34,791 bases of DNA, taken from NCBI GenBank assembly GCA_025923195.1, contig JAICGJ010000045.1, positions 1-34,791 on the forward strand, read 5' to 3'. The notes below the pieces were generated by a model that searched no databases, had not been told where the DNA came from, and saw only the letters and a list, made by a program, of their open reading frames with translations. Positions within the stretch are counted from its first letter, which is position 1; every line of letters starts with the position of its first letter. The DNA comes from Chryseolinea sp. Its GTDB lineage: Bacteria > Bacteroidota > Bacteroidia > Cytophagales > Cyclobacteriaceae. A program made the translations under genes and the position numbers. Below, in pieces: positions 25,758 to 31,481 of this stretch.

Positions 25758-27071
25758 CTAGGATAGTGCGGTCTTAAAGACCGCGAGTGCGCGTTCCCTG
25801 GCAAACTTGTGATCGATGATTGGTTCAGGATATTTATCGCTGCCATATTCAGGAACCCAATTGCGGATGTATTTACCGTCGGGATCAAACTTATCGGCCT
25901 GCAGCTCAGGGTTGAAAACTCGAAAATAGGGTGCCGCATCGCAGCCGGAGCCGGCTGCCCATTGCCAACCTCCGTTATTAGAGGCGAGATCGTAGTCCAA
26001 TAGTTTTTTCGCAAAATACGCTTCGCCCCACCGCCAGTCGATCAATAGGTGTTTGGTAAGAAAGCTTGCAGCAATCATGCGGACTCTATTATGCATAAAT
26101 CCGGTATGGTTGAGTTCCCGCATTCCGGCATCGACAATGGGGTATCCCGTCTGGCCCTCACACCAGGCGTTGAATTCGTTTACATCATTTCGCCAATGGA
26201 TGTTCTCGTAGGCGCGCTTGAATGACTGAGTCACAACATGCGGGAAATGCCAAAGTATCATTTGATAAAATTCTCGCCATACAAGCTCATTGAGCCACGC
26301 GTCGTTTTTCTTAAATGCGATTTGTACAAGCTTGCGGATACTGATTGTTCCGAAGCGCAAGTGAACACCAAGTCGTGTTGTCCCTTGCACACCCGGATAG
26401 TTCCGCTGCTTATGATATTTTTCAATAATTGGAATTCTAACGAGACGTTCCGGGAACTTGCTGTACGTTGCGTGGAAGCCTATGTCAGCAAGTCTGGGCA
26501 GTGGAAGTGATTTGCATGAAAGAAAGTACTGATGATACTTCTCCGACGGATAACTTTTTATATAGAAGGGGTTGATCTTGGCTTTCCACGCTTTAGCGTA
26601 TGGTGTGAACACAGTGTATGGCTTCTTATCCTGCTTTAAGACCTCTCCTTTTTCAAAAATCACCTGATCTTTATATGTCTTAAAAATAATTCCTTTGTCG
26701 TTTAGGACCTGGTGAACAACTCTGTCGCGCCCGATACCATAGGGTTCATAATCGTGATTTGCATAGACGATTCTAGGTGTGAGTCGTTTAAAAATCTCAG
26801 CTGGCCGGCCATGCAAGACGAGTAACGAGCTACCCAATAATTCCAACTCATTTTTTAGATGAGCGAGCGACTGATGAATGAAGTCAACGCGCCTATCTTG
26901 CTTATCATCCAGGTCGTCGAGAATGCCAGTGTCAAAAATAAACAATGGGATTACTTTTCGGTTTTCCTTCAAGGCGTAATACAGAGCTGCATTATCGTTC
27001 AAACGCAGGTCTCGTCTCAGCCAGCAAACGGCTACGTCATCATGGATAATCTCAGCGCCGGCGGTGCTCAA
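25758..27071 (-). CDS. phr: Deoxyribodipyrimidine photolyase (cryptochrome/photolyase class I)
   Basis: This 437-residue flavoprotein repairs UV-induced pyrimidine dimers with blue light. The N-terminal photolyase domain starts VAVCWLRRDLRLNDNAALYYAL (about 13-34). The FAD-binding domain has WREFYQMILWHFPHV, IVDAGMRELNHTGFMHNRVR and the hallmark stretch DLASNNGGWQWAAGSGCDAAP, then YFRVFNPELQADKFD. No ATG is available near the N-terminus; TTG 27071 is the only reasonable start. It is the last gene of the sigma-crtI-crtB-idi-phr operon, 12 bp after idi and in the same frame as idi. Confidence 0.95.
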   Translation of the reverse strand: MSTAGAEIIHDDVAVCWLRRDLRLNDNAALYYALKENRKVIPLFIFDTGILDDLDDKQDRRVDFIHQSLAHLKNELELLGSSLLVLHGRPAEIFKRLTPRIVYANHDYEPYGIGRDRVVHQVLNDKGIIFKTYKDQVIFEKGEVLKQDKKPYTVFTPYAKAWKAKINPFYIKSYPSEKYHQYFLSCKSLPLPRLADIGFHATYSKFPERLVRIPIIEKYHKQRNYPGVQGTTRLGVHLRFGTISIRKLVQIAFKKNDAWLNELVWREFYQMILWHFPHVVTQSFKRAYENIHWRNDVNEFNAWCEGQTGYPIVDAGMRELNHTGFMHNRVRMIAASFLTKHLLIDWRWGEAYFAKKLLDYDLASNNGGWQWAAGSGCDAAPYFRVFNPELQADKFDPDGKYIRNWVPEYGSDKYPEPIIDHKFARERALAVFKTALS

Positions 27072-27083
27072 AACTAAAAGTTT

Positions 27084-27599
27084 TCATGCAGCGAAAGGCT
27101 TCAGTTCAGGATGATTCAATATTAGTTTGAACCAGATGGTATAACGGTCGGGGTGCTGGTAAACATCCTCGCGTAAGTACTGCATAGTGACAAACTTCCA
27201 ATCCTCAACTTCGTCCAGGTTGATAATTGGTGTCCCATCAAAAGTGCCAGTAAAGACATGGTCAAGTTCGTGCTCTGTCAGATCCTCGTTGAGTTTGCAC
27301 TCATATATGAATTTATAGACATAGGTAGGTTGTAGGTCTATTCCCATTTCATATTTCAGTCTTTTACGCGTTGCATCATCTATTGATTCATTAAGCGTTG
27401 GATGGCTACAGCATGCATTTGTCCAAAGGCCACCGCTGTGATATTTATTTCGGGATCGCTTTTGGAGCAGCAGCTCGCCTTTGGAATTAAATATCAATAT
27501 GGAAAACGCCCTGTGCAATATCCCCTGTCTATGCGCTTCCATTTTATCCATTGAGCCTAAGACGTTATCCTGCTCATCTACGAGAATGACCTTGTCCAT
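27084..27599 (-). CDS. idi: Isopentenyl-diphosphate delta-isomerase, type I
   Basis: This 171-residue Nudix-fold enzyme (from ATG 27599) interconverts IPP and DMAPP, feeding carotenoid synthesis. AHRQGILHRAFSILIF near 22-37 has metal-ligand histidines, LWTNACCSHP (about 58-67) holds the catalytic cysteine and LTEHELDHVF (about 107-116) the catalytic and metal-binding glutamates. Length is normal. The crtB stop and idi start share one base (TGATG at 27601-27597), which indicates translational coupling. A TTG three bases upstream is possible but not needed. Confidence 0.95.
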   Translation of the reverse strand: MDKVILVDEQDNVLGSMDKMEAHRQGILHRAFSILIFNSKGELLLQKRSRNKYHSGGLWTNACCSHPTLNESIDDATRKRLKYEMGIDLQPTYVYKFIYECKLNEDLTEHELDHVFTGTFDGTPIINLDEVEDWKFVTMQYLREDVYQHPDRYTIWFKLILNHPELKPFAA

Positions 27600-28432
27600 C
27601 AAATTAAGTTAAGCTGATGTTTTACATATGAGTACGCGAGCAACCGGGCCTTGTCGGCGTTTGCAATTCGGATTCTGTCCTTAAGTATTGATTCCGGCGA
27701 GACATTTTTTATTTTCTTAAACAAAGAACGATAATATACATAAGCTACATATACGCCCAATCTTGAAGATCGCGGTAACCGTTTTATCCCTTGGATTGCG
27801 TGATTGAAGTCCTCTTCAATACTTTTTTCTATGTTCATTTTTGCACTAGCATCCCATTGACCCAAGTTGATTTCTGGAAAATAAATTCTCCCCAGCCCGT
27901 TGAAATCTGTGTTTAAATCCCGAAGGAAATTTACTTTCTGAAATGCTGCGCCCAGGCTTCTGGCAAAGGGGGAAAGTGTTTCGTATCGCGAAGTATCCCC
28001 TTCTAAAAAAACATGAAGGCACATGAGTCCAACCACTTCCGCGGAGCCCGTGATATATTCCTTTGATTCATCAACACTATAAGTCTTTTTATGGAGATCC
28101 ATCTCCATGCTTTTGAAGAACTTCTCAATTAATTCCTTCTTTATACCATAACGACTAACGACGTGTTGAAAACTGTTCAGGATTGGATTGAGACTGATTC
28201 CCTCCTCGATGGCCTGAAATGTCGCTAGTTTGAATCTGTCTAATAAAACTTTTTTATTTAACTCGTGGAACGTATCCACAATTTCATCTGCAAAACGAAC
28301 GAATCCGTAAATGGCGTAAATAGGATCTCGAAGGCGCTTATGAAAACATTGGATTCCAAGGGAAAAAGATGTGCTGTATTGATGAGCAGTAATTCGGCTG
28401 CATCGGGCTGAAACTTTATTAAAGGTTTGCAT
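27599..28432 (-). CDS. crtB: Phytoene synthase
   Basis: This 277-residue trans-prenyltransferase joins two GGPP to phytoene. Both Asp-rich motifs are present: DEIVD (49-53 from this start) and DLNTD (172-176) within VNFLRDLNTDFNGLGRIYFPE. I chose ATG 28432 because GGAGG (28441-28437) stands 4 bases before it and MQTFNKVSARCSRIT aligns with family N-termini. An earlier ATG at 28459 would add nine residues and overlap crtI by 14 bp. The GGPP synthase is not in the window. Confidence 0.94.
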   Translation of the reverse strand: MQTFNKVSARCSRITAHQYSTSFSLGIQCFHKRLRDPIYAIYGFVRFADEIVDTFHELNKKVLLDRFKLATFQAIEEGISLNPILNSFQHVVSRYGIKKELIEKFFKSMEMDLHKKTYSVDESKEYITGSAEVVGLMCLHVFLEGDTSRYETLSPFARSLGAAFQKVNFLRDLNTDFNGLGRIYFPEINLGQWDASAKMNIEKSIEEDFNHAIQGIKRLPRSSRLGVYVAYVYYRSLFKKIKNVSPESILKDRIRIANADKARLLAYSYVKHQLNLI

Positions 28433-28436
28433 TGTG

Positions 28437-28441
28437 CCTCC
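28437..28441 (-). promoter_or_regulatory. Ribosome binding site that decides the crtB start
   Basis: GGAGG lies four bases before ATG 28432, in the 13-bp gap after the crtI stop. The alternative ATG 28459 lacks a comparable site. Confidence 0.6.
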
Positions 28442-28445
28442 AGGA

Positions 28446-29921
28446 TTAAATACGCTCATGTCTTTTAATCAATTCTCTCGCGACCACTTCTCCTGATATC
28501 AGCGCTGGCGGTACGCCGGGTCCCGGCACCGTTAATTGTCCAGTATAAAACAAGTTAGCTACTTTTTTGCTGACGATCGAGGGTTTTAGTATGGCAGTTT
28601 GACGCAATGTATTGGCAAGGCCATACGCATTTCCCTTAAATGCATTATAATCTGCAGAGAAGTTATCAGGTGTATAGGTTCTCTGAAACACGATATGATC
28701 ACCAAGTCGTTCTCCGGTAATATTTTCAATCCTGTTTATCACCATGTCAAAATATTTTTGAGCGACTTCGTCTGACGTCCGGAGACCTGTAGCCACAGGT
28801 ATCAAAACAAAAACATTTTCATGCCCCGGCGGGGCAACCGTTGGATCCGTCTTCGAAGGACAGCAAACGTAAAATTGAGGGGAGGTCGGCCATTTCGGAT
28901 CAGTGTAGATCTCATCAGCGTGTTTTTTGAAATCCTGGTCGAAAAATAGCGTGTGGTGCAGGAGTTTGTCGATTCTTTTATTTATCCCGAGATAAAATAT
29001 GAGAGACGAAGGTGCCATCACTCTGTCATTCCAATAGTTGTCAGAATATATTCGATGAGACGATGGCAGAAGTTGCTGTTCAACGTGGTGGTAGTCCGCA
29101 GAGGCCACAACGTACTCAAAGGGTCTGAAAGTGTCCTTTACAATACATCCTGTTAATTTTCTTGAGGTTACTTCCAGTCTCTGGACAGGACTGTCATACT
29201 CGAACTCAACTCCCAATGAGGTGGCCAGTGATACCAATGCTTCTATAACTTTATATATTCCGCCTACAGGGTACCACGTACCCAGCGCCATATCTGCGTA
29301 GTTCATCAAACTATACAACGCAGGGGTTTCCTCAGCTCTTGCACCTAGAAATAAGACTGGAAATTCCAGCAGTTGAACTAATCGTTCAGACTTAAACTTT
29401 TTTTTTACATACGAGGACAAGGAGTCGAAGAGGTGTAATCTGAAAGAGTTTTTTACGATGTCTACGTCCAGCATTTCTCTTACGGACAGGCCTGGCTTGT
29501 ACACCAGGTTCCCTATACCGATCCGGTATTTATACTCAGCCTCCTTGAGAAATATCAGTAGTTGTTTACCGCTTCCAGGCTCTAGCTGCTCGAACATTTT
29601 GTATAATCCTTCTACGCTAGCTGGCACATCAACTGCATCGTCTTTGCCAAATAGAATGCGATACGATGGATCCAATCTCTCTAAAGAATAATAGTCGGCG
29701 GGTGTTTTTCCGAAATGTTTGAAGAATCTTTCGAATACATCGGGCATCCAGTACCAACTCGGTCCCATGTCAAAAGTAAAGCCGAAGGCCGCGAATTTTC
29801 TTGCGCGCCCTCCGGCTATTGTATTCTTCTCAAAAACCGTGACCTGATAACCCTGTTTCGCCAGAAAGCAGGCGGCAGATAAGCCAGAAAAACCCGAACC
29901 AATAACTGCGATTCGCGTCAT
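28446..29921 (-). CDS. crtI: Phytoene desaturase (CrtI family)
   Basis: This 491-residue FAD-dependent desaturase turns phytoene into lycopene. The dinucleotide-binding motif is GSGFSG (8-13) in IAVIGSGFSGLSAACFLAKQ, followed by VFEKNTIAGGRARKF. The C-terminus has the conserved NLFYTGQLTVPGPGVPPALISG segment that contacts FAD. Length is standard. It is preceded by the sigma factor gene (25-bp gap) and followed by crtB, in one operon. Some family members act on other carotenoids (CrtN, CrtD, CrtO types), but presence of crtB and the absence of a second desaturase favour phytoene. Confidence 0.93.
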   Translation of the reverse strand: MTRIAVIGSGFSGLSAACFLAKQGYQVTVFEKNTIAGGRARKFAAFGFTFDMGPSWYWMPDVFERFFKHFGKTPADYYSLERLDPSYRILFGKDDAVDVPASVEGLYKMFEQLEPGSGKQLLIFLKEAEYKYRIGIGNLVYKPGLSVREMLDVDIVKNSFRLHLFDSLSSYVKKKFKSERLVQLLEFPVLFLGARAEETPALYSLMNYADMALGTWYPVGGIYKVIEALVSLATSLGVEFEYDSPVQRLEVTSRKLTGCIVKDTFRPFEYVVASADYHHVEQQLLPSSHRIYSDNYWNDRVMAPSSLIFYLGINKRIDKLLHHTLFFDQDFKKHADEIYTDPKWPTSPQFYVCCPSKTDPTVAPPGHENVFVLIPVATGLRTSDEVAQKYFDMVINRIENITGERLGDHIVFQRTYTPDNFSADYNAFKGNAYGLANTLRQTAILKPSIVSKKVANLFYTGQLTVPGPGVPPALISGEVVARELIKRHERI

Positions 29922-29946
29922 CTGGGCAAGTTAGACAAGAATGTTT

Positions 29947-30447
29947 TCAATAACCTTGAAGCCTTTTTTGGATTTCTTTCCTGGCGTGAAAAATTCTATT
30001 CTTCACAGTTCCTATCGGGATTCGTAAGTGATCCGCAATTTCATGATACTTATAACCCGTAGTATGCATTTTGAAAGGCGTAAGCAGTTCTTCCTTGATA
30101 TTGTTTACATTTTTCCAGATCTCCTTGAATTCCAGACTTTCTTGAGGACGATTGAAAGTATGCTCTTCTTCTACGTTTAGAAAGTATAAATCCTTCGTAG
30201 TGTCGTTTGATGTCTTTGCACGTTGATTCTTGCGATAATTATTAATGAACGTGTTTCTCATAATTGTGAAAAGCCATCCTTTCAGGTTGGTGTCCTGCCT
30301 GAACTTATCACGATAAGTCAGGGCTTTGAGTATCGTATCCTGAACAAGATCCAGTGATTCATCCTTATCATGAGTGAATCTTCTGGTGAAAGTTTGCAAT
30401 GTGCCTCGCAAGCCGGCTATCTGATGGGTGAATTCTATCGCAGTCAT
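29947..30447 (-). CDS. ECF RNA polymerase sigma factor heading the carotenoid operon
   Basis: This 166-residue sigma-70 family protein has region 2 (about 20-80: ESLDLVQDTILKALTYRDKF and GWLFTIMRNTFINNYRK) and region 4 (about 105-162: YKYHEIADHLRIPIGTVKNR). No anti-sigma gene adjoins it, so control is probably transcriptional. Its place between a B12-MerR regulator and the crt genes parallels the LitR/LitS pair of Streptomyces, in which the sigma factor drives light-induced carotenogenesis. The promoter and dyad just upstream (30467-30523) support this. Its own target promoters are unknown. Confidence 0.92.
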   Translation of the reverse strand: MTAIEFTHQIAGLRGTLQTFTRRFTHDKDESLDLVQDTILKALTYRDKFRQDTNLKGWLFTIMRNTFINNYRKNQRAKTSNDTTKDLYFLNVEEEHTFNRPQESLEFKEIWKNVNNIKEELLTPFKMHTTGYKYHEIADHLRIPIGTVKNRIFHARKEIQKRLQGY

Positions 30448-30466
30448 GGGTCTTTGGTTTAAAAAT

Positions 30467-30494
30467 GTTTAATGATATTTGGATATCGTTAAAC
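30467..30494. promoter_or_regulatory. Inverted repeat (operator candidate) over the start of the sigma-crt operon
   Basis: GTTTAATGATAT (30467-30478) and ATATCGTTAAAC (30483-30494) are reverse complements at 11 of 12 positions, separated by TTGG. On the minus strand the dyad begins at the last base of the -7 box and spans the expected start site, the position for a repressor. It ends 20 bp before the sigma ATG. Confidence 0.68.
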
Positions 30495-30523
30495 AAATAT
30501 AGTGCTTAACCAAAACGCGCCAA
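30494..30523 (-). promoter_or_regulatory. Bacteroidota-type promoter of the sigma-crt-phr operon
   Basis: On the minus strand TTG (30523-30521), 19 bases and TATATTTG (30501-30494) match TTG-N19-TAnnTTTG exactly. Transcription should start about 7 bases further, inside the inverted repeat, giving a leader of about 40 bases. Confidence 0.7.
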
Positions 30524-30543
30524 GAATTCTGTTTGATTTTTCT

Positions 30544-30558
30544 GTTAAAAAGTTAAAC
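30544..30558. repeat. GTTAAAAAGTTAAAC element upstream of the sigma promoter
   Basis: Two GTTAAA words in direct repeat (8-bp period) lie 21 bp upstream of the -33 box. A related TTTAAACTTTTAAC lies at 31491-31504 in front of the MerR gene. They may be extra regulator sites or AT-rich chance. Confidence 0.35.
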
Positions 30559-30614
30559 AAAAATTAATTTAAAATTCATAACATTATAATAGACAATGGG
30601 TTATAAGGGTAGAG

Positions 30615-31481
30615 TTAAATGTATTTGCTGAGTTCCAGCGCTGTGGAGAAAGTTTGCACATTTGCCAGCTTAGAACCGTTGAATTTCTGGACCTGATAAC
30701 CCGATGCAAGAATTTTTGTCTGTCCGAACTCGTTTGCAAGGCGTTCCAGGTACTTTTCGATGGGGTCAGGAGGGGTGGACGTAATAGAAGTGAGCATAAA
30801 GTCCGGTTGATGCACTTTGTACACACTCACCAAATCCTCGTGTGGCACATTTTGCCCAAGATAGTAGGTTCGATACCCGGCCTTGCGGATAAGAAAGTGG
30901 TAAAAAAGTAATCCAAGTTCATGCATTTCACCCTCCGGCAGGAATAACAGTATCTTTTTCTGAGTTTTCGGTGGAATTGGGAGTCCATCAATTGCAACAA
31001 CGATTTTTTGCCTTATCAGATTTGAAATGAAATGCTCATGCGCGGGTGTGATATTCTGGGTTTGCCAGAGTATCCCTATTTTTTCAAGGAAGGGATAGAT
31101 GATTTCAGTGATTGTCTGCTCAAATCCGAATCGCAGAATCAAGTTGTTCAAAATCTTCTCAAACAATTCCTCTTCCATATCGATCATGGCAATAACCATT
31201 TGATCGATATGTACACCCTTGTCATTTTGGAGTTCGCTGATCTCGAGGACCTTTCTATTCATGTCATCCAATGACATGTCTGCGATCTTTGAGATCTTAA
31301 TACCATAGGTATTCAGCAGAGAGACATTAATAATTTTCTTGAGGTCCAGGTCGGAGTAGTAGCGGATATTCGTAGCGGTTCTTGATGGTTCAATGATCTT
31401 ATGACGCTTTTCCCAAATCCGAATGGTATGCGCCTTGATCCCTGAAAGTTGTTCAAGTTCTTTAATTGAATACTGCCCCAT
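30615..31481 (-). CDS. CarH/LitR-like B12-binding MerR transcriptional regulator
   Basis: This 288-residue regulator has an N-terminal MerR winged helix (about 4-70: YSIKELEQLSGIKAHTIRIW then RYYSDLDLKKI), a four-helix B12-cap domain (about 90-165) with W139 and E149-H150 in the W-x9-EH pattern, and a Rossmann cobalamin domain (about 175-288) with the ExHxxG motif E185-M-H187-E-L-G190. H187 is the expected lower axial ligand. In CarH of Thermus and Myxococcus these residues bind adenosylcobalamin; the dark tetramer represses carotenoid genes and light breaks it. The gene is next to an ECF sigma-crt operon, so the same role is inferred. Its stop is 167 bp before the sigma start. Confidence 0.9.
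   Translation of the reverse strand: MGQYSIKELEQLSGIKAHTIRIWEKRHKIIEPSRTATNIRYYSDLDLKKIINVSLLNTYGIKISKIADMSLDDMNRKVLEISELQNDKGVHIDQMVIAMIDMEEELFEKILNNLILRFGFEQTITEIIYPFLEKIGILWQTQNITPAHEHFISNLIRQKIVVAIDGLPIPPKTQKKILLFLPEGEMHELGLLFYHFLIRKAGYRTYYLGQNVPHEDLVSVYKVHQPDFMLTSITSTPPDPIEKYLERLANEFGQTKILASGYQVQKFNGSKLANVQTFSTALELSKYI

Follow-up and report, generated by a model that had tools for sequence, protein, structure and literature searches.

A predicted CarH-type vitamin B12 repressor and a shared inverted-repeat operator in a candidate light regulon of Bacteroidota

The window analyzed here is a stretch of 34,791 nucleotides from a soil bacterium, Chryseolinea sp. (assembly GCA_025923195.1, contig JAICGJ010000045.1). 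Between 31481 and 25758, on its minus strand, lie a MerR-type regulator gene (merR), an extracytoplasmic function (ECF) sigma factor gene, carotenoid genes and a photolyase gene, which we interpret as part of a B12-controlled light regulon. Genes were called from the open reading frame list combined with Pfam and NCBIfam profile searches of the window proteins. The merR gene (30615..31481) encodes a CarH/LitR-like regulator with a helix-turn-helix (HTH), a four-helix B12 cap domain and a B12-binding Rossmann domain, an assignment that also draws on an alignment and a structure model. It is followed by the gene of the 166-aa ECF sigma factor (29947..30447), crtI (28446..29921; NCBIfam CrtID, 732 bits against a cut-off of 640), a crtB-like phytoene synthase gene (27599..28459; Pfam SQS_PSY), idi for a type 1 isopentenyl-diphosphate isomerase (27084..27602, with an ATG start at 27599) and phr, a DNA photolyase/cryptochrome family gene with a TTG start (25758..27071); sigma, idi and phr were identified with both profile collections. 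A gap of 167 bp separates merR from sigma and one of 25 bp sigma from crtI; crtI and crtB overlap by 14 bp (an in-frame later ATG at 28432 would instead leave a gap), crtB and idi by 1 nt, and 12 bp lie between idi and phr. An earlier note on this DNA had described these six genes, their order, single strand and spacings, and all are borne out, as is its claim that no anti-sigma gene is present: none adjoins sigma in the gene content of the window. Beyond merR, a helicase gene runs on the opposite strand from 31520.

In the merR–sigma gap, the inverted repeat TTGTTTAA-N16-TTAAACAA occurs twice, around a housekeeping-type promoter. On the minus strand, the predicted distal operator dyad (30529..30560) departs from this pattern by two mismatches and the predicted proximal dyad (30465..30496) by one. 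The putative −7 box, TATATTTG (minus strand, 30494..30501), follows the Bacteroidota consensus TAnnTTTG (PMC9723704), and its TTTG is shared with the proximal dyad. A putative −33 element region lies at 30516..30523 on the same strand, with a TTG at 30523-30521, 22 bases upstream of the −7 box. A simple promoter scan also lists the 30523/30496 pair; simple scanning for sigma-70 promoters and terminators gave no excess over shuffles (promoters, 5 versus 11.6; terminators, 7 versus 5.3). Since the promoter lies between and over the two dyads, the layout fits repression. The interval in which the earlier note had expected light-sensitive binding, 30448-30614, does hold two candidate sites, in the form of an inverted repeat.

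The dyad was derived from a comparison of 35 merR–sigma or merR–crtI gaps, which yielded TTGTTTAA, 16 bases and TTAAACAA. When each half was allowed one mismatch at most, a spacer of 16 was seen in 41 pairs and one of 17 in 9 pairs, each remaining spacer from 4 to 39 accounting for at most 4 pairs; shuffles give 0.02 for spacer 16. We then scored 88 gaps (two samples, window included, six repeated genomes dropped) for a dyad with at most two mismatches and a spacer of 16 or 17. Such a dyad was present in 85, the gaps without one being L079, L258 (dyad before merR instead) and L225. In 63 of these 85 gaps, TAnnTTTG overlaps the proximal copy; for the distal copy, the corresponding figure is 3 of 45. 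Of the 43 gaps with at least two dyads, 34 have their last two at a distance of 42-45 or 62-65 bp, approximately four or six helical turns, and one tetramer may bridge both dyads.

By its domains and residues, the window MerR protein is classed as CarH/class I LitR. Its closest named relative is from Chryseolinea sp. H1M3-3 (85% identity). Pfam places a MerR HTH first, then B12-binding_2 and then B12-binding. The top sequence matches in the PDB are 3whp (2.6e-17), which carries the deposited name "probable transcriptional regulator", and 5c8d, Thermus CarH (3.1e-17). The AlphaFold model has a predicted local distance difference test (pLDDT) score of 91, and in a structure search with this model the best 50 of 97 matches (E <= 0.001) were all CarH, CtMerR or photocobilin. 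The light signature of CarH proteins, GxxW, EH, GxxH and GxxxP (PMC11796333), is complete in the window protein, at residues 136-139, 149-150, 184-187 and 209-213, respectively. Among 52 aligned proteins (the window protein and 51 relatives), W139, E149, H150, H187, G209 and P213 do not vary; Gly occupies position 184 in 35 and position 190 in 20. The residues W139, E149-H150 and E185-x-H187-xx-G190, on which the earlier note had relied, are present in the window translation as stated. The window genome also encodes a PduO-type cobalamin adenosyltransferase.

Some properties of the protein speak against this assignment. The B12-binding Pfam match scores 31.3 bits, slightly under the cut-off of 32.1. 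The NCBIfam CarH equivalog NF052513 scores 85 bits, far under its cut-off of 400, and by that rule the window protein is no close CarH orthologue. In addition, Gln140 of the window protein takes the position of H132, the residue with which TtCarH forms its bis-His ligation in light, and none of the 52 aligned proteins has a His there. The H132A variant of TtCarH fails to monomerize in light, and SasPcob has a Gln at the same position; the histidine is not universal in light-sensing cobalamin domains (PMC11796333). Taken together, the missing histidine, the H132A defect and the Gln of SasPcob suggest that the light state may form differently here.

The earlier note had proposed looking for the merR–sigma–crtI order in other Cytophagales. 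Of 51 loci from relatives, 27 have merR, sigma, crtI and crtB in succession on a single strand; L034, where the matches to crtI and crtB are short, and L041, where 6.8 kb separate sigma from the rest, are included in this count. The gene order is conserved and is therefore not chance. After sigma, the relatives carry crtI, phr, idi or other genes; in L086, the gene behind sigma had been labeled "SRPBCC" by eye, a label withdrawn for want of a Pfam match. Four loci lack sigma (L074, L078, L080 and L081), and in them the dyad is retained, between merR and crtI. Because the same dyad stands directly before crtI in these relatives, sigma appears to be an optional layer. As for a LitR–LitS-type cascade, with an ECF sigma factor under a B12 regulator, dyads do precede sigma, and sigma's own targets were not found; a two-step cascade through sigma would be the natural reading. 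A by-eye search upstream of Hymenobacter crtI for a promoter of the ECF sigma factor gave nothing firm. A CATCTTCG-like block, noted by eye, recurs tens of bases before crtI in several Hymenobacter species (L243-L252) and might be the promoter of the operon's sigma factor. In Chryseolinea serpens, the main operon matches crtI and crtB only in short stretches, as though the middle were missing; a separate crtI elsewhere in that genome (63% identical to window crtI residues 1-453) has a dyad of its own, which suggests that the site moves together with the gene.

We next asked how the dyad is distributed relative to merR in 194 genomes of the order, calling merR at E <= 1e-30 and setting the exact dyad against a reversed control pattern. 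merR was called in 153 genomes and the exact dyad found in 95, compared with 4 for the control. The exact dyad was present in 92 of the 153 merR genomes versus 3 of the 41 merR-less ones, and those three are at most 82% complete; among genomes of at least 90% completeness, the counts were 82 of 139 versus 0 of 23. A survey of 159 genomes of the class with a Lacinutrix query (E <= 1e-30) detected a merR relative in 93, and 19 of the 30 loci fetched carry the dyad.

Several observations weigh against a CarH-type repressor acting through this site. Restricting the comparison to genomes of at least 2.5 Mb and at least 90% completeness leaves 7 merR-less genomes (dyad in 0/7, p 0.0026), and because the merR-less genomes are mostly small and come from few families, the co-occurrence is not phylogenetically independent. 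The exact dyad is absent from 61 of the 153 merR genomes. With up to one mismatch, 46 of 59 relatives match, including four of the eight merR-less genomes (G013, G019, G033 and G038); G013 is 83% complete, and its match precedes sigma–crtI. In the window genome itself, the motif and the reversed control give 2 versus 2 places at up to one mismatch and 84 versus 158 at up to three, the exact copies (1 versus 0) being the sole count in the motif's favor. Ten places there have two mismatches: one is the window's own site, and inspection of the nine others by eye revealed no clear light gene. In 17 of 51 loci, merR is not followed by sigma or crtI; a dyad adjoins it in 1 of these 17, and 11 of the 30 class loci have none. 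Finally, the tandem 11-bp direct repeats of CarH operators (nAnnTnnACAn) are absent from the window gap, which has a single AnnTnnACA match.

Separately, in L259, L260, L262 and L264, three of them in Pedobacter records, merR relatives lie beside two photolyase-family genes without a dyad; these relatives are perhaps a sister branch with a different operator.

We also collected 97 loci selected for a dyad with at most one mismatch and grouped the 135 proteins starting within 500 bp, with group names resting on window proteins or on Pfam tests of one to three members. The groups comprise sigma (31), PTPS (11), FAS1 (10), DUF4397 (8), a family beside sigma (7), rhodopsin (6), a family opposite PTPS (6), merR (4), photolyase/cryptochrome (3) and crtI (3), together with 46 others that include one BLUF and one crtB gene. 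Five of the 97 dyads lie inside open frames. The sole perfect dyad of the window genome (contig C256:1-1951) precedes a second crtB (584-1432) that shares 68% identity with the first. In L110, the gene behind a dyad encodes a BLUF blue-light sensor. FAS1 (fasciclin; L098, L103 and L164) and DUF4397 genes (L082, L128 and L189) are frequent dyad neighbors.

Gene-first tests, which avoid selection by the dyad, were made for rhodopsin and PTPS genes; the reversed control was zero in every one of them. Loci with cut flanks have wrong starts and were counted as misses (L306 among the order rhodopsins; L333, L346 and L354 in the class rhodopsin and PTPS tests). For the order, 72 of 76 rhodopsin matches were tested in batches of 30, 29 and 13, leaving out three contig-end fragments and one match below the cut-off. 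A dyad no more than 400 bp upstream was found for 33 of 58 rhodopsins in merR genomes versus 0 of 14 in merR-less genomes; the last batch of 13, mostly second copies, contributed 3 of 12 and 0 of 1, respectively, bringing the total for merR genomes from 30/46 to 33/58. The 14 rhodopsins of merR-less genomes come from 12 genomes of one family (f8) and have A+T-rich upstream regions. In the class, the dyad stood upstream of 15 of 28 rhodopsins tested, 10 of them with at most one mismatch, and it preceded 18 of the 30 PTPS genes most similar to a dyad-bearing one, a sample that favors close relatives. Six dyad-less rhodopsins of the last order batch (L428, L429, L430, L432, L433 and L434) look by eye unlike the proton-pump type, and the dyad seems to go with pump-like rhodopsins. 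The window genome has no rhodopsin gene. With dyads before further genes, and in further genomes, the system looks like a regulon rather than a single operon.

The anatomy, conserved residues, predicted operator, promoter overlap and co-occurrence seen here led us to the view that the MerR protein is probably a CarH/LitR-family adenosylcobalamin light sensor acting as a dark repressor of a sigma-first light regulon. The earlier note's picture of a CarH-like B12 protein beside a sigma-first pigment and photorepair operon holds at the level of sequence and proved too narrow, as the operon belongs to a predicted regulon in which sigma is optional. We read sigma-first regulons with a CarH-type B12 dark repressor as widespread in Bacteroidota. 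Favored as well, with rather less assurance, is the broader proposal that a CarH-type B12 photoreceptor with a shared inverted-repeat operator runs a Bacteroidota light regulon, directly switching the genes of rhodopsin phototrophy along with those for pigment, photorepair and pterins, in many cases by way of a sigma-first cascade. In the dark, B12-bound oligomers would occupy the two operators around the housekeeping promoter of sigma-crtI-crtB-idi-phr and block RNA polymerase. In light, the Co–C bond would break and the oligomer would change or fall apart, after which sigma, pigment and photolyase genes would be made together. The same repressor would directly control the second crtB in the window genome and rhodopsin, pterin and cryptochrome genes in relatives, while sigma would pass the signal on to further genes. 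B12 binding, the light response, a single operon transcript, the direction of regulation and the role and targets of sigma are predictions in this scheme.

Like the CarH (class I LitR) systems of Thermus thermophilus, Bacillus megaterium and Myxococcus, the window has a MerR HTH joined to a two-part B12 domain, with W-x9-EH and the lower-ligand His, encoded beside crt genes and predicted to repress a housekeeping promoter in the dark. Unlike those systems, whose operators are tandem 11-bp direct repeats, the predicted operator has two inverted halves separated by N16 or N17 and is frequently present twice, about 44 or 63-64 bp apart, and an ECF sigma gene is often the first gene predicted to be controlled; unlike TtCarH, the window protein and its relatives have no bis-His histidine. 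We take it to differ from characterized CarH proteins in operator design, the missing bis-His histidine and predicted targets. In Streptomyces LitR–LitS, a MerR/B12 regulator is paired with an ECF sigma factor in carotenoid control. The window shares this combination of B12 regulator, ECF sigma factor and carotenoid genes; a possible difference is that some relatives of the window locus lack sigma, the site standing directly before crtI, and that the site also occurs at unlinked genes. CtMerR of Chloracidobacterium thermophilum likewise has the B12 light signature and is a tetramer that monomerizes in light; it apparently has an arginine at the bis-His position, unlike the Gln of the window protein (PMC11796333).

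Among other explanations, the protein could be a B12-dependent repressor that reports cobalamin supply and not light. The Gln in place of the TtCarH bis-His residue would suit such a role, as would the fact that the case for light is built from sequence, yet the upper-face W and EH residues enclosing the light-labile adenosyl group are invariant. The recognized dyad neighbors include photolyase, cryptochrome, BLUF and rhodopsin genes, and no family of B12 uptake or use appears among the named groups, with the 46 other neighbors read by eye only. We consider this explanation unlikely. It is similarly unlikely that a different regulator binds the dyad and that MerR acts elsewhere or by another route. 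Binding of MerR to the dyad is a prediction, and both the merR genomes without an exact dyad and the loci where merR stands apart (a dyad in 1/17) are in keeping with a second protein. Against it, the dyad is found in nearly all gaps where merR precedes sigma or crtI (85/88), stays in place when sigma is missing (L074, L078, L080 and L081), and is absent in exact form from all 23 merR-less genomes of at least 90% completeness; moreover, CarH half-sites have a TnnACA core (PMC8156234), to which TAAACA, the half-site seen here, conforms.

A class II LitR-like effector, dependent on a separate flavin photoreceptor instead of B12, is a very unlikely identity for the protein, even though class II LitR recognizes TGTACA hexamers in pairs and governs similar genes (PMC9758184). 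In Pseudomonas, the class II proteins PplR and PmlR2 recognize two operator sites, one over the −35 region, with the pattern TGTACA-N12-TGTACA; they lack the B12 Rossmann half, keeping only the four-helix domain, use a LOV partner and control phr, cry, folE and SDR genes (PMC9758184). The window system resembles them in its two operator sites and overlapping set of light genes (phr, cry, folE, SDR), whereas the window protein keeps the Rossmann half and the lower-ligand His, and its operator is TTGTTTAA-N16-TTAAACAA, not TGTACA-N12-TGTACA. MerR proteins are commonly activators, so that classical activation of the operon from the dyad has precedent, but it is hardly plausible here, since the −7 box sits at either of two places with respect to the dyad (−5 or about +15) and many gaps have a second dyad upstream, pointing to occlusion rather than a fixed spacer geometry.

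Among the papers listed in a literature search of partial coverage, none dealt with a CarH operator or with CarH control of rhodopsin in Bacteroidota, which is weak evidence of novelty. In Chryseobacterium lacus, carotenoid synthesis was reported to be induced by light, without any car or lit gene being found; the induced cluster contains crtI, crtB, a hypothetical gene, crtZ, lycopene cyclase and lipocalin (PMC7064467). Two of our merR-dyad clusters, L261 and L265, resemble that cluster: both read merR-crtI-crtB, then a small protein without a Pfam match, a by-eye crtZ-like gene and a lycopene cyclase. In L261, Pfam supports the lycopene cyclase and a lipocalin, the crtZ-like gene has no Pfam match, and phr and idi are also present. 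The present analysis offers a candidate regulator and a predicted binding site for light-controlled genes in Bacteroidota, and because the operator predicts targets genome by genome, the idea is testable. The system is a conserved and real one with a bold, testable link to rhodopsin phototrophy. If that link is true, rhodopsin phototrophy would be tied to vitamin B12, and B12 supply would help to set the timing of rhodopsin pumps.

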